A stretch of 64,000 nt of DNA from Streptomyces uncialis (GTDB lineage Bacteria > Actinomycetota > Actinomycetes > Streptomycetales > Streptomycetaceae). Below the pieces are notes generated by a model. That model had not been told where the DNA came from. It saw only the letters and a list, made by a program, of their open reading frames with translations, and ran no database searches. Where the stretch lies: the NCBI RefSeq assembly GCF_036250755.1, contig NZ_CP109583.1:8302001-8366000 (forward strand), written 5' to 3'. The position numbers and the translations under genes are program-made. Below are positions 41,781 to 62,437 of this stretch, piece by piece (position 1 is the first letter of the stretch; each line of letters opens with the position of its first letter).

Positions 41781-43322
41781 ATGCTGGAGAGCATCGTTGT
41801 CGTCGGTGGCGGAACATCGGGCTGGATGACGGCCTCCTATCTGAGCGCCGCGTTCGGCGAGCGGATATCCGTCACGGTGGTGGAATCCGCCCGGGTCGGG
41901 ACCATCGGCGTCGGTGAGGCGACCTTCAGCACCGTGCGGCATTTCTTCGAATACCTCGGGCTTTCCGAGGAGACATGGATGCCCGCGTGCAATGCCACCT
42001 ACAAACTCGGTATCCGCTTCGAGAACTGGCGGGCACCGGGCCACCACTTCTACCATCCCTTCGAACGGCAGCGGGTGGTGGACGGGTTCACCCTCCCCGA
42101 CTGGTGGCTGGCCGACGGCGGCGCCACCGAACGGTTCGACAAGGAGTGCTTCCTCGTCGGCACCCTGTGCGACACGATGCGCTCGCCCCGCCACATGGAC
42201 GGCGCGCTGTTCGAGGGGGACCTCACCGACCGCCCCGCGGGCCGCAGCACACTCGCCGAACAGGGCACCCAGTTCCCGTACGCGTACCACTTCGACGCCG
42301 CGCTGCTCGCCGACTTCCTGCGGGACTACGCCGTCGCGCGCGGGGTGCGGCACGTGGTGGACGACGTGGTCCACGTCGCCCGGGACGAGCGCGGCTGGAT
42401 CAGCCATGTCGCCACCCGGAGCAGCGGTGACCTGGCCGGGGACCTCTTCGTCGACTGCACCGGCTTCCGCGGGCTGCTCATCAACGACGCCCTGGACGAG
42501 CCGTTCGAGTCGTACCAGGACACCCTCCCCAACGACAGCGCCGTCGCGCTGCGGGTACCCGTCGACATGGAACGCGAGGGGCTGCGCCCCTGCACCACCT
42601 CCACCGCGCAGGCCGCGGGCTGGATCTGGACCATCCCGCTGTTCGGCAGGGTCGGCACGGGCTACGTCTACGCCCGCGACTACTGCACCCCCGAGGAGGC
42701 CGAGCGCACCCTGCGCCGGTTCGTCGGCCCCGCCGCCGACGATCTGGAGGCCAACCACATCCGGATGCGGATCGGCCGCAGCCGGCGCTCCTGGGTGAAC
42801 AACTGCGTCGCCGTCGGACTGTCCTCCGGATTCGTCGAACCACTGGAATCCACCGGGATCTTCTTCATCCAGCACGCCATCGAGCAACTGGTGAAGCATT
42901 TCCCCGACGCGGACTGGGACCCCGCCCTGCGCAGCGCGTACAACACGCTCGTCAACCGCTGCATGGACGGCGTCCGGGAATTCCTCGTCCTGCACTACTA
43001 CGGTGCCGCCCGCGCCGACAACGAGTACTGGCGGGACACCAAGACCCGGAAGATCCCGGACTCCCTCGCCGAACGCGTCGAACAGTGGCGGACGAAACTC
43101 CCGCACCCGGAATCCGTGTATCCGCACTATCACGGCTTCGAGGCCTATTCCTATGTGTGCATGGTGCTCGGGCTCGGCGGAATCCCGCTGAAACCCTCAC
43201 CCGCGCTGCGCATGCTCGACCCGTCCGCCGCGCAGCGGGAGTTCCGGCTGCTGGCCACCCAGGCCGAGGATCTTCGGCGCACACTGCCCAGCCAGTACGC
43301 GTACTTCGCCCAGTTCCGCTGA
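41781..43322 (+). CDS. FADH2-dependent tryptophan halogenase (PyrH-like)
   Basis: A 513-residue flavin halogenase. The FAD motif GGGTSGWM is at residues 9-16, the catalytic Lys75 lies in [13 protein letters not shown], the WIWTIP halogenase box at 281-286 and the catalytic Glu356 in [12 protein letters not shown]. HOCl made at FAD travels to the Lys and chlorinates free tryptophan. Overall sequence looks closer, from memory, to the 5-halogenase PyrH than to the 7-halogenase RebH, so 5-chlorotryptophan is the likely product, as reported for related indolotryptolines. ATG at 41781 with GGAGG upstream. It starts the operon with antiporter and flavin reductase. Confidence 0.95.
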
Positions 43323-43340
43323 GCGGCGGCGGCCGGAGCC

Positions 43341-59468: not shown

Positions 59469-59491
59469 CTCCCGGGGCGGGCGGCGGGGGC

Positions 59492-62437
59492 CTACTCGGC
59501 CCCGAACGGCGCCGGAGCCGTTCTCGCCCCCGGCGCACACACGATCCGGGTCAGATCCACCCGCGACTGGATCGCCAGCTTCCGGTAGATCTGCCGCAGA
59601 TGGAAACTCACCGTGTGCGGCGAGATGAACAGCTCACCGGCCACCTGCCGGTTCGTCAGCCCCCGGGCGACGAGCTGCGCCACCTTCTCCTCCGCCCCGG
59701 TGAGACTGTCCCAGCCGGTCTGGGGCCGGGCGACGAGATTCCAGTGCCGCCGCCGCACCCCGAGCCGCCGCAGCCGCCGCCGCACCCGCGCCGAGTCGCG
59801 TTTGGCGCCCAGCCCGTCGTACCCGGCCATGGCCGCGTTGAACGCGCCGATAGCCCCCTCCCGGTCGCCCCCGCACAGCAGCACGCCCAGATCCTCGGTG
59901 GCCGAGGCGACGGCCCAGGGGTCCCCGTACCCGTCGACGGCCCTGGCCAGCAGGGTCACATCGCCGGTCAGCAGGGCCCGCCCGTGCGCCGCCGCCGCAC
60001 CCGTCGCGGGCCGCGTCCGGGCCAGCGCCGCCACCTCCCCGGCGCAGTCCACGATCCGCGCCGCGAACTCCCGGTCCCCGGCGGCCAGCGCGGTACGGAC
60101 GCACCACGCCGTCGCCGACGGGTCCTCCAGCACCAGCCGTCGCCGCAGCCCTTCGTCGTGACGGGCGTCCCGCAGTACCTCCAGCGCTTGTTCGGCCCCC
60201 CTCCGCGCGGCCGTCACCTGCGCTGTGATCAGGCACCGCATGGCCCACCACGGGCGCGACGGCCCGCCGGGCACGGTGGCGGACTCCCAGTGGCCCTGCC
60301 GTTCCAGGGCCTCGGCCAGATCGCCCCGGCGCAGCGCCACGGCCACCAGCACGGCCCGCAGATGTGGTTCGCACAGCGGCATCCGGGCCGCGTCGGACGC
60401 GGCGATCCCGGCCCGCGCGAGCTGCTCGGCCTCGGCCAGGTCGCCCCGGGCGAAGCTCACCCAGGACCGCAACGCGAACTGCAACGGGTCCAGTACCCCG
60501 TTGGAGTCGGCGTCGATGGTGCGCCGGACCGCTTCGACCATGACCGCGGCCCCGTCGAGGTCGCGGAGCTTGATCAGGATCCACGCCGTGTTCCACAGGG
60601 AGTTGTTCTGCCAGATGCCGGTGCCGTCGTCACCGTGCGCGGGGGTGCGCTCCAGCAGGCCCAGCGACTCGTCGATCCGTCCGTCGCCCCACAGGGACAT
60701 CGCCCGGATGTTGCGGGCCGCCGTACACACGTCGCGTTCGTGGGCGGACTCGTCCTTCAGTACCTCGTCGGCCGCCGCCAGCGCGGCCCGTTCGTCGGTG
60801 TGGGACAGCATGGTGAGCCGCAGCAGCAGCGGCGACGGGCTGCCCTGGCCGGGGCCCGCCCCGTCCGCGGCCGGGTCCGGGGGCCCGCCCGCCGCGGCGT
60901 CGCACAGGATCCCCGGTACGGAGGCGGCCTCCCCGCGCAGCAGCAGCGCGGTCGCGAGCCAGGCCCGCAGCGGCCAGGTCCGGGCGTCCTGCCGGGCGCC
61001 GTCGCCGGGCCGGGCCGGATGCGCGCGCCGGTGTCCGGCGACCACGCGTTCGGCGACGTCCACCGCCCGGTGCAGACTGCCCGAGCGGACGAGCGCGGCG
61101 GTCGCCGTGGTGGCCAGCGCGATGTGCTCGGGCTGGGTCGGCGTGGTGATCTCCAGACCGCGCAGCGCGAGCGCGGCGGCGGCCTGCGGGGACACCGGGA
61201 GCAGTCGGTCCGCCGCCTCCCGGATGGTGGTGATGGCCTGGTCGTCGTCGGACTGGGCGCAGTGCACCAGATGCACCGCCGCGGCGGTGCCGTCCCCGAG
61301 CTGACCGAGGATCATGTTCGCCGCCTGCCGGTGCAGCAGGGACCGCATCAGCGGTGGAACGGTGCCCAGCACCGCGTACCAGATCGGTTCGCGGTGGAAG
61401 GAGAACTCCTCGGTGCCGCTGGTGAGAAGTCCCGCTGCCAGTGACTCCTGGAGCGGGCCGAGGAGTTGCACGGGTCGCTCGTCGGCCATCTCCGCCAGGT
61501 CGCGCGGCATGAAGGACGGACCGAGGACGGCCGCGACCTGGAGGAGCCGCTGGGTGCCGGGCGCGAGCCGGTCGAGCCGGTCGTGCATCAGCCGCAGGAA
61601 CGCGCGCGGCAGATGCGCCCCGGGGTCGGGGGCGACGGCGGAGGTGAAGCCGGAGGCGAGCGGTTCCGCGACGAGCGACACGGTGCCCCCGGTGATCCGC
61701 AGGCACTGCTCGTCCAGCAGACCGCGCACCAGCTCCACGATCGCCTGGGGGCTGCCGCCCAGGCTCTCGCCGAGGGCCCGTACGTCGTCGCTGGGACGGG
61801 CGCCCAGGAGGTCGCCCATCAGTTCGGTGACCGCCCGGTCGTCGAGCGCGTCGAGCTGCGGGAGCCATTCCGCCCGGTGGATGGTCAGGTTGCGCAGCAG
61901 GAGGCTGTTCGCGGACCGCGCGTCCTCCGTACGCATCGTGAGCAGCCACCGCACGGGAGCGGCCAGCAGTTTGAGCGCCAGTCCGCACAGGGTCCGCAGC
62001 TGCACCGGGTCGGCCCACTGCGCGTCGTCCACGAGTACGAGCACCGGGCCGCGCCGCAGCCCCGCGTCGATCTGGGCCTGGACCTGCACGGGGCCCGCCG
62101 GACGTACCGGGCGCGGCACCCGCGGGGCGACGGCCCGGCCCGCGCCGACGGCGGGCGAAGCCGCCTCCTCGCCGCGCCAGGCGCCCCCGGCGGAGCAGTC
62201 GATCACGGTGAAGCCGAGTCCCTCGGCGAGGGCGCCCGTCTCCTGGAGGAGCCGTGTCCTGCCGCTTCCCGCGGGGGATTCCAGGAGGGTGATGCCGCCT
62301 TGGCGGCTCTCGGCGGTCGCCCGCAACGAGGCGCGTATCTGCTCCAGATGGCCGTCGCGGCCACGGAGCGGACGGCCCACGGCCGGCGGGAACTGGGGGA
62401 CTGGGTCGTCAGGCTTTTCCAGGGTCTTCCCGTTCAT
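59492..62437 (-). CDS. Large ATP-binding LuxR-family regulator (LAL type)
   Basis: A 981-residue LAL regulator. N-terminal AAA-like ATPase with RPLRGRDGHLEQI, Walker A SPAGSGRTRLL near residue 54 and Walker B VLVLVDDAQWADP near 132; a long helical TPR-like middle; and a C-terminal LuxR HTH (LTGAEEKVAQLVARGLTNRQ, then VSFHLRQIYRKL) at about residues 912-966. Walker A has Arg in place of the usual Lys (GSGRT), so ATP use may be weak. The ATG at 62437 was chosen because AGGAGAG lies just before it. I saw no TTA codon in the frame. It is the likely pathway activator, as in related bisindole clusters. Confidence 0.93.
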   Translation of the reverse strand: MNGKTLEKPDDPVPQFPPAVGRPLRGRDGHLEQIRASLRATAESRQGGITLLESPAGSGRTRLLQETGALAEGLGFTVIDCSAGGAWRGEEAASPAVGAGRAVAPRVPRPVRPAGPVQVQAQIDAGLRRGPVLVLVDDAQWADPVQLRTLCGLALKLLAAPVRWLLTMRTEDARSANSLLLRNLTIHRAEWLPQLDALDDRAVTELMGDLLGARPSDDVRALGESLGGSPQAIVELVRGLLDEQCLRITGGTVSLVAEPLASGFTSAVAPDPGAHLPRAFLRLMHDRLDRLAPGTQRLLQVAAVLGPSFMPRDLAEMADERPVQLLGPLQESLAAGLLTSGTEEFSFHREPIWYAVLGTVPPLMRSLLHRQAANMILGQLGDGTAAAVHLVHCAQSDDDQAITTIREAADRLLPVSPQAAAALALRGLEITTPTQPEHIALATTATAALVRSGSLHRAVDVAERVVAGHRRAHPARPGDGARQDARTWPLRAWLATALLLRGEAASVPGILCDAAAGGPPDPAADGAGPGQGSPSPLLLRLTMLSHTDERAALAAADEVLKDESAHERDVCTAARNIRAMSLWGDGRIDESLGLLERTPAHGDDGTGIWQNNSLWNTAWILIKLRDLDGAAVMVEAVRRTIDADSNGVLDPLQFALRSWVSFARGDLAEAEQLARAGIAASDAARMPLCEPHLRAVLVAVALRRGDLAEALERQGHWESATVPGGPSRPWWAMRCLITAQVTAARRGAEQALEVLRDARHDEGLRRRLVLEDPSATAWCVRTALAAGDREFAARIVDCAGEVAALARTRPATGAAAAHGRALLTGDVTLLARAVDGYGDPWAVASATEDLGVLLCGGDREGAIGAFNAAMAGYDGLGAKRDSARVRRRLRRLGVRRRHWNLVARPQTGWDSLTGAEEKVAQLVARGLTNRQVAGELFISPHTVSFHLRQIYRKLAIQSRVDLTRIVCAPGARTAPAPFGAE

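Follow-up and report, generated by a model that had tools for sequence, protein, structure and literature searches.

Cladoniamide genes in a second Streptomyces uncialis-type genome, with a hydrolase-fold protein that lacks its catalytic triad

Gene content of the locus

Cladoniamides are rearranged double-indole compounds that block a cellular proton pump. The stretch of DNA analysed here (the window) comprises 64,000 nucleotides of contig NZ_CP109583.1 (assembly GCF_036250755.1, positions 8,302,001 to 8,366,000 of the forward strand). Its positions 41781-62437 hold 13 open genes, spanning 20,657 bp from the ATG of claH (41781) to the ATG of claR on the minus strand (62437). Their order, claH-T-F-Y-O-C-P-X1-M1-D-X2-M3-R, equals the order of the cla (cladoniamide) cluster in Table 1 of PMC3158105. 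A first-pass annotation made from the sequence alone had proposed a complete cluster for a chlorinated bisindole of the indolotryptoline class in this interval, naming a halogenase, a flavin reductase, homologues of RebO, RebC, RebP and RebD, two extra flavin monooxygenases and two methyltransferases. Reading of open reading frames (ORFs) and Pfam searches confirmed all of the named genes as present, open and located as described. However, claT, claY and claR lie inside the same coordinates and were missing from that list, and the minus strand of claX1 was not stated.

Domains were called with Pfam and NCBIfam profiles, and the nearest solved structures were taken from sequence searches of PDB. 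Frames were read at the protein lengths of PMC3158105 Table 1, and start codons were picked that way. The features are as follows, with identities referring to the copies in S. uncialis DCA2648.

41781..43322, plus strand: claH, FADH2-dependent tryptophan (Trp) halogenase, 513 residues; Trp_halogenase (PF04820), 470 bits; 511/513 identical; C5 chlorination predicted
43347..44615, plus strand: claT, Na+/H+ antiporter-like transporter, 422 residues (published length); PF00999, 88 bits; 420/422 identical
44612..45145, plus strand: claF, flavin reductase serving the halogenase, 177 residues, GTG start; Flavin_Reduct (PF01613), 114 bits; 177/177 identical
45320..46156, minus strand: claY, alpha/beta-hydrolase-fold protein without the catalytic triad, 278 residues; PF12146/PF00561; 276/278 identical
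46498..48057, plus strand: claO, L-tryptophan oxidase (RebO homologue), 519 residues, GTG start at the published length; Amino_oxidase (PF01593), 190 bits; 518/519 identical
48099..49772, plus strand: claC, RebC-type flavin oxygenase, 557 residues; best PDB match RebC (2r0c), 664 bits
49769..51031, plus strand: claP, cytochrome P450 (RebP/StaP homologue), 420 residues; p450 (PF00067), 102 bits; best PDB match 2z3t (presumably StaP), 439 bits; 419/420 identical
51012..52673, minus strand: claX1, flavin adenine dinucleotide (FAD) monooxygenase, proposed to act on the indolocarbazole core by epoxidation/dihydroxylation, 553 residues; PF01494, 278 bits; 552/553 identical
52983..53714, plus strand: claM1, putative N-methyltransferase (imide nitrogen), 243 residues; PF08241, 68 bits; 241/243 identical
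53711..56983, plus strand: claD, chromopyrrolic acid synthase (RebD homologue), 1090 residues, GTG start; Ferritin-like (PF12902), 117 bits; 1084/1090 identical
56983..58248, plus strand: claX2, FAD monooxygenase, proposed trigger of the ring rearrangement, 421 residues; PF01494, 188 bits; 416/421 identical
58245..59279, plus strand: claM3, putative O-methyltransferase, 344 residues; PF00891, 141 bits; 342/344 identical
59492..62437, minus strand: claR, LAL-type LuxR family regulator, 981 residues; PF00196, 58 bits; 979/981 identical

At the published lengths 12/13 frames show an exact ATG or GTG start and 0 internal stops; for claP, claX1 and claD the same lengths also appear in the plain ORF list. 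ClaC is the odd one, with an ATG at 48099 and 557 instead of 561 residues. It is four residues short because the window has 12 bases fewer than S. uncialis DCA2648 at position 49701, in frame and near the 3' end. The Pfam family FAD_binding_3 was found in three proteins (254, 278 and 188 bits) and a methyltransferase fold in two (68 and 141 bits). Against the NCBIfam profile VioB the RebD homologue scored 744 bits, under the cut-off of 1250. Matches to flavin, heme and S-adenosylmethionine (SAM) binding patterns were obtained for H, C, X1, X2, O, P and M1. M3, though recognised by PF00891, did not fit the SAM pattern, and ClaR fitted a Walker A pattern in its relaxed but not in its strict form. 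Glycosyltransferase or sugar genes were not found among the selected ORFs scanned (37.4-63.8 kb of the window), which agrees with their absence as claimed in the first-pass annotation. The same scan holds two methyltransferase ORFs and a third, abeM2, was not seen in it, abeM2 not having been used as a query. The genes claP and claX1 run towards each other and share 20 bases at their 3' ends (51012-51031).

Identity with the cladoniamide cluster of S. uncialis

The lichen-associated S. uncialis is a cladoniamide producer, and its cla cluster with these 13 genes has been published (PMC3158105). Scanning genome contigs with ClaD resulted in 20 loci, the best of which belongs to S. uncialis DCA2648 (L005, NZ_LFBV01000003.1; 99%). 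DNA identity to this strain amounts to 99.3% over 15.7 kb (92 mismatches) and 98.8% over 4.7 kb (52 mismatches), together covering 43722-64000 of the window; the stretch 38000-44000 aligned at 99% as well, i.e. the flank is shared. All 13/13 proteins are 98.8-100% identical. This includes the two extra monooxygenases, whose relationship had been left to be checked: ClaX1 and ClaX2 are 99.8% and 98.8% identical to proteins in the genome of the cladoniamide species, which speaks against a grouping with unrelated pathways.

Two 8-kb probes were taken from elsewhere in the window's genome. The one from 6.0 Mb matched DCA2648 at 99% over its full length, whereas the one from 4.0 Mb aligned as two pieces (99% and 97%) separated by ~290 bases. 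The near-identity of the cluster and of 2/2 probes makes it very probable that the window's genome and the cladoniamide producer belong to one species. The assembly (9.26 Mb, 3 contigs) is not the DCA2648 assembly (~8.9 Mb). Taken together, the window almost certainly carries the cladoniamide cluster (claHTFYOCP-X1-M1-D-X2-M3-R), and the genome around it very probably belongs to an S. uncialis strain other than DCA2648. The class proposed in the first pass is thereby sharpened to the cladoniamide cluster itself, in view of its 98.8-99.3% DNA identity to DCA2648. The cluster is real and complete, but it is the published cla cluster and its novelty is nil, because S. uncialis is the described producer.

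With its full set of cladoniamide genes, this second S. uncialis-type genome points to a possible alternative producer of cladoniamide A. A 2026 preprint presents this compound as a reversible inhibitor of the vacuolar ATPase (V-ATPase) with nanomolar antiviral activity (PMC13252584). The mentions of cladoniamide in PMC7285244 and PMC8600237 are a mass match and a genome-mining list.

Two side observations concern the alignment with DCA2648. In the gap between claM3 and claR (window 59284-59412) it breaks and overlaps itself, which suggests a length difference of ~110 bases; a tandem-repeat scan of this gap gave one short 13-base repeat and leaves the break unexplained. Within the 4.0 Mb probe, the stretch L089:2525-3209 is the source of nearly all of those matches of the probe in DCA2648 that are listed, out of 302 in total (~73-95% identity, often on both strands), and, judged by these matches, is a highly repeated element.

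Relatives of the cluster and phylogeny of ClaD

Homologues of ClaX1 (61-100%) and ClaM1 (65-99%) are carried by 10/20 ClaD loci, and ClaX2 (63-99%) is found in 10/10 of those, whereby the ClaX2 homologues of L006 and L020 were found on reading further upstream (L080, L086). The other 10 loci have an X1-like protein of at most 36% identity (L014-L017, L019, L021) or none (4 loci). claM3 is present in 7/10 cla-type loci. The records with X1 and X2 are named Streptomyces, Kutzneria, Lentzea, Nocardia and Mycobacterium. As these are named genomes, the class is uncommon but not confined to metagenomes. The rarity put forward in the first-pass annotation holds to this extent, whereas its "very few cultured strains" is too strong given that half of the 20 named-genome loci carry both genes.

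A maximum-likelihood tree was built from 21 ClaD rows. A branch supported at 100/100 sets all 11/11 rows with X1 and X2, the window's RebD-like protein included, apart from the 10/10 rows without close X1/X2 homologues. The phylogenetic check suggested along with the original class assignment thus came out in favour of that assignment. Label shuffles did as well in 0/500 cases, a test that near-copies help and that was run on a midpoint-rooted tree.

As a single marker of the class ClaX2 was rejected. At E <= 1e-100 it matched in 30/392 sampled genomes of the genus and 45/394 of the class (both counts include the window's genome), and besides the own copy the listed identities are 45-60%, with one other genome (G122) reaching 60%. 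ClaX1 at E <= 1e-120 was found in 2/394 genomes of the class, of which one is the window's own and the other has a 48% identical protein. Judged by these searches, ClaX1 is the sharper marker.

The Streptomyces genome G122 has on short contigs (L082, L083) a ClaX2 homologue (59-60%), two ClaM1-like methyltransferases (40-43%), two halogenases (61%, 41%), a ClaC homologue (54%) and a P450 (45%). By their gene content, these contigs are probably another, fragmented bisindole cluster.

Proposed biosynthetic route

The route follows PMC3158105 and rebeccamycin chemistry; we infer the order of steps and the expression in the window's strain. ClaH together with ClaF would convert tryptophan to 5-chlorotryptophan. 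The C5 position is predicted from similarity, as the best PDB match of ClaH is AbeH (8fov/8fox, 923 bits), a proven Trp-5-halogenase (PMC11840605). ClaO would oxidise (chloro)tryptophan to the imine of indole-3-pyruvate, and ClaD would join two such imine units to chromopyrrolic acid, from which ClaP and ClaC would generate an arcyriaflavin-type indolocarbazole by ring closure and oxidation. ClaX1 would then turn the shared double bond into a diol, probably through an epoxide. ClaX2 would oxidise an indole, whereupon the ring opens and closes again via the indole nitrogen, leaving one indole flipped (indolotryptoline). Methylation of the imide nitrogen would fall to ClaM1, that of a hydroxyl to ClaM3. 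ClaT probably serves export or protection, and ClaR probably activates the cluster. For the homologous abe cluster, mutants for H, X1, X2, M1 and M3 have been reported (second-hand from PMC3158105), the abeX1 mutant accumulating the indolocarbazole and the abeX2 mutant a methylated diol.

A second flavin-dependent halogenase (PF04820, 391 bits) is located in the same genome at G000:C1:7547497-7548858 (L002), adjoining a protein 37% identical to ClaT. It possibly contributes to another halogenated product.

Alternative assignments

The first rival is the BE-54017 (abe) cluster, with the thrice methylated relative as product. The halogenase is indeed nearest to AbeH in PDB, and an abe homologue exists for each of the 13 gene types (PMC3158105 Table 1). 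However, H-T-F-Y-O-C-P stand before X1-M1-D-X2-M3 as in cla, while in abe X1-M1-D-X2-M3 come first (PMC3158105), and the scanned ORFs hold only the two methyltransferase genes. Moreover, Cla and Abe proteins are 46-74% identical (PMC3158105 Table 1), compared to 98.8-100% between the window and S. uncialis. This comparison used the description of abe in PMC3158105 and not abe DNA. In sum, a BE-54017 cluster is very improbable. Borregomycin was also considered as product, and both identities were rejected by gene order, methyltransferase count and halogenase similarity. The window's halogenase scores 923 bits to AbeH vs 383 bits to the sequence of PDB entry 6ul2, which we take to be BorH. Least probable of all is a rebeccamycin/staurosporine-type cluster for a glycosylated indolocarbazole with unrelated monooxygenases nearby, since the O, D, C and P homologues are common to those pathways but sugar and glycosyltransferase genes are missing from the scanned ORFs, ClaD groups solely with X1+X2 rows, and X1 and X2 accompany the other cluster genes in 10/10 cla-type loci.

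Some points weigh against the cladoniamide assignment and the functions read from it. The length match of 12 genes checks for a start codon at the expected place and is not an independent prediction, because published lengths were used to choose the starts. The partners in the comparison were PMC3158105 Table 1 and the DCA2648 assembly, not the published cosmid itself. The second-best PDB match of ClaH (5hy5, 826 bits) is labelled Trp-6-halogenase, the C5 call being one by similarity. Likewise, the roles proposed for ClaX1 and ClaX2 are drawn by analogy from the abe mutants reported in PMC3158105.

ClaY, a hydrolase fold without triad

The role of ClaY and AbeY was left open in 2011, when imide hydrolysis was considered (PMC3158105). 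We aligned ClaY with its 120 best protein matches, out of 698 among 8000 scored candidates. The triad Ser/Asp/His is kept completely in 81/121 rows and lost completely in 40/121 including ClaY, with 0 intermediates. In the triad-less rows the nucleophile is Gly, the Asp column shows Pro (32), Ala (5), Leu (1), Arg (1) or Glu (1), and the His column consists of 39 gaps and 1 Arg; ClaY itself reads Gly/Ala/gap. In a quick tree (FastTree) a branch of support 100 separates these 40 rows from the others, and label shuffles were as good in 0/500 cases. The Gly-type elbow also occurs in 9/9 claY homologues compared from other cla-type loci, the DCA2648 copy included. A block LNEVFW was rejected as a ClaY speciality: it is found in 39/40 triad-less rows but also in 65/81 triad-bearing ones.

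An AlphaFold2 model of ClaY (38 rows) is an alpha/beta hydrolase with a mean predicted local distance difference test score (pLDDT) of 88.6 and a predicted template modelling score (pTM) of 0.88. Among PDB structures the model matches PET46 best, then feruloyl/cinnamoyl esterases and a lipase, with template modelling scores of 0.70-0.76 on the query for the top 25. Gly124 is located at the strand-helix junction of the model, i.e. at the nucleophile site. As the triad columns are lost and the fold is kept, ClaY is without standard catalytic machinery. Alignment and model suggest that ClaY is not a triad hydrolase, although a non-standard active site is possible. If so, the opening of the imide to minor cladoniamides would need another agent or none.

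Mutants of abeY still make BE-54017 while new small metabolites appear (PMC3158105), which argues against a vital role, as do the cla-type stretches of Mycobacterium, in which claY was not seen. Among the 10 papers listed of 32 found in a literature search, AbeY/ClaY is used in this sense clearly only in PMC3158105, "clay" also being a common word, and the triad loss may be new. It makes the question left in PMC3158105 directly testable.

Relatives with a nonribosomal peptide synthetase

Nocardia crassostreae, N. seriolae and Mycobacterium sp. D16R12 have cla-type sets in which a one-module nonribosomal peptide synthetase (NRPS) directly follows the claD homologue:

L006:13322-17917: NRPS gene, 1531 residues
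L020:13275-19025: NRPS gene, 1916 residues
L024:13249-19014: NRPS gene, 1921 residues

The modules run from condensation and adenylation to a carrier and a condensation-type last domain; in L020 and L024 a methyltransferase domain stands ahead of the carrier. Pfam reports two condensation stretches, and a second condensation domain was dropped after GHGRE, VGWF and FNYLG had been read by eye in the last domain; strict patterns for two of these three (EGHGR, GWFT) gave no match there. We take these to be motifs of epimerisation domains, and by them the last domain reads as epimerisation-like. Within the stretches compared, claM3 and claT were not seen in the three species, nor claF and claY in those of Mycobacterium. 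In the tree the three loci form one ClaD subgroup. Between its claP and claX1, L006 additionally has genes of ketosynthase, transketolase and dehydratase type.

The NRPS after claD, in sets where claM3 was not seen, suggests that the scaffold is decorated with an amino acid in these lineages; the link to a bisindole product is drawn from adjacency in 3/3 loci of one ClaD subgroup. Judged by listings and not by the text of the papers, literature searches brought up no report that we recognised as this variant, which is no proof of novelty, and the variant may be new. We see about even chances for the combined proposal that ClaY is a pseudo-hydrolase, from one lineage of an apparently active hydrolase family that gave up the whole triad at once but retained the fold, and might for example hold the unstable diol for X2 or the methyltransferases, and that the NRPS lineage leads to aminoacylated indolotryptolines.

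Comparison with known systems

The window shares with the cla cluster and DCA2648 the 13 genes, their order, 12/13 protein lengths and the flanks. It differs by the 12-nt deletion in claC and the alignment break between claM3 and claR. The BE-54017 (abe) cluster from a soil metagenome has the same 13 gene types, but its blocks are reordered and it has one more N-methyltransferase, abeM2 (PMC3158105). The borregomycin (bor) cluster, likewise from a soil metagenome, is of the same chlorinated indolotryptoline type and uses the Trp-6-halogenase BorH (PMC11840605).

Cla/abe-like sets are moreover found in Streptomyces adelaidensis (L013), Kutzneria sp. CA-103260 (L007), Lentzea cavernae, L. waywayandensis and L. 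californiensis (L008-L010) and Nocardia sp. NRRL S-836 (L018); BE-54017 clusters in Lentzea were noted previously (PMC9120177). Homologues of H, T, F, Y, O, C, X1, M1, D, X2 and M3 are present in 6/6 of them with 56-80% identity. claP is whole in L013 only; the locus ends inside it in L007, L010 and L018 and before it in L008 and L009, in which claC is cut. For claR, L013 has a homologue (55%) and L007 a partial one upstream (48%), while none was seen in the stretches available from the remaining four. The block order is that of abe in L007-L010 and L018, whereas S. adelaidensis shows the cla block order with claH upstream at 80%.

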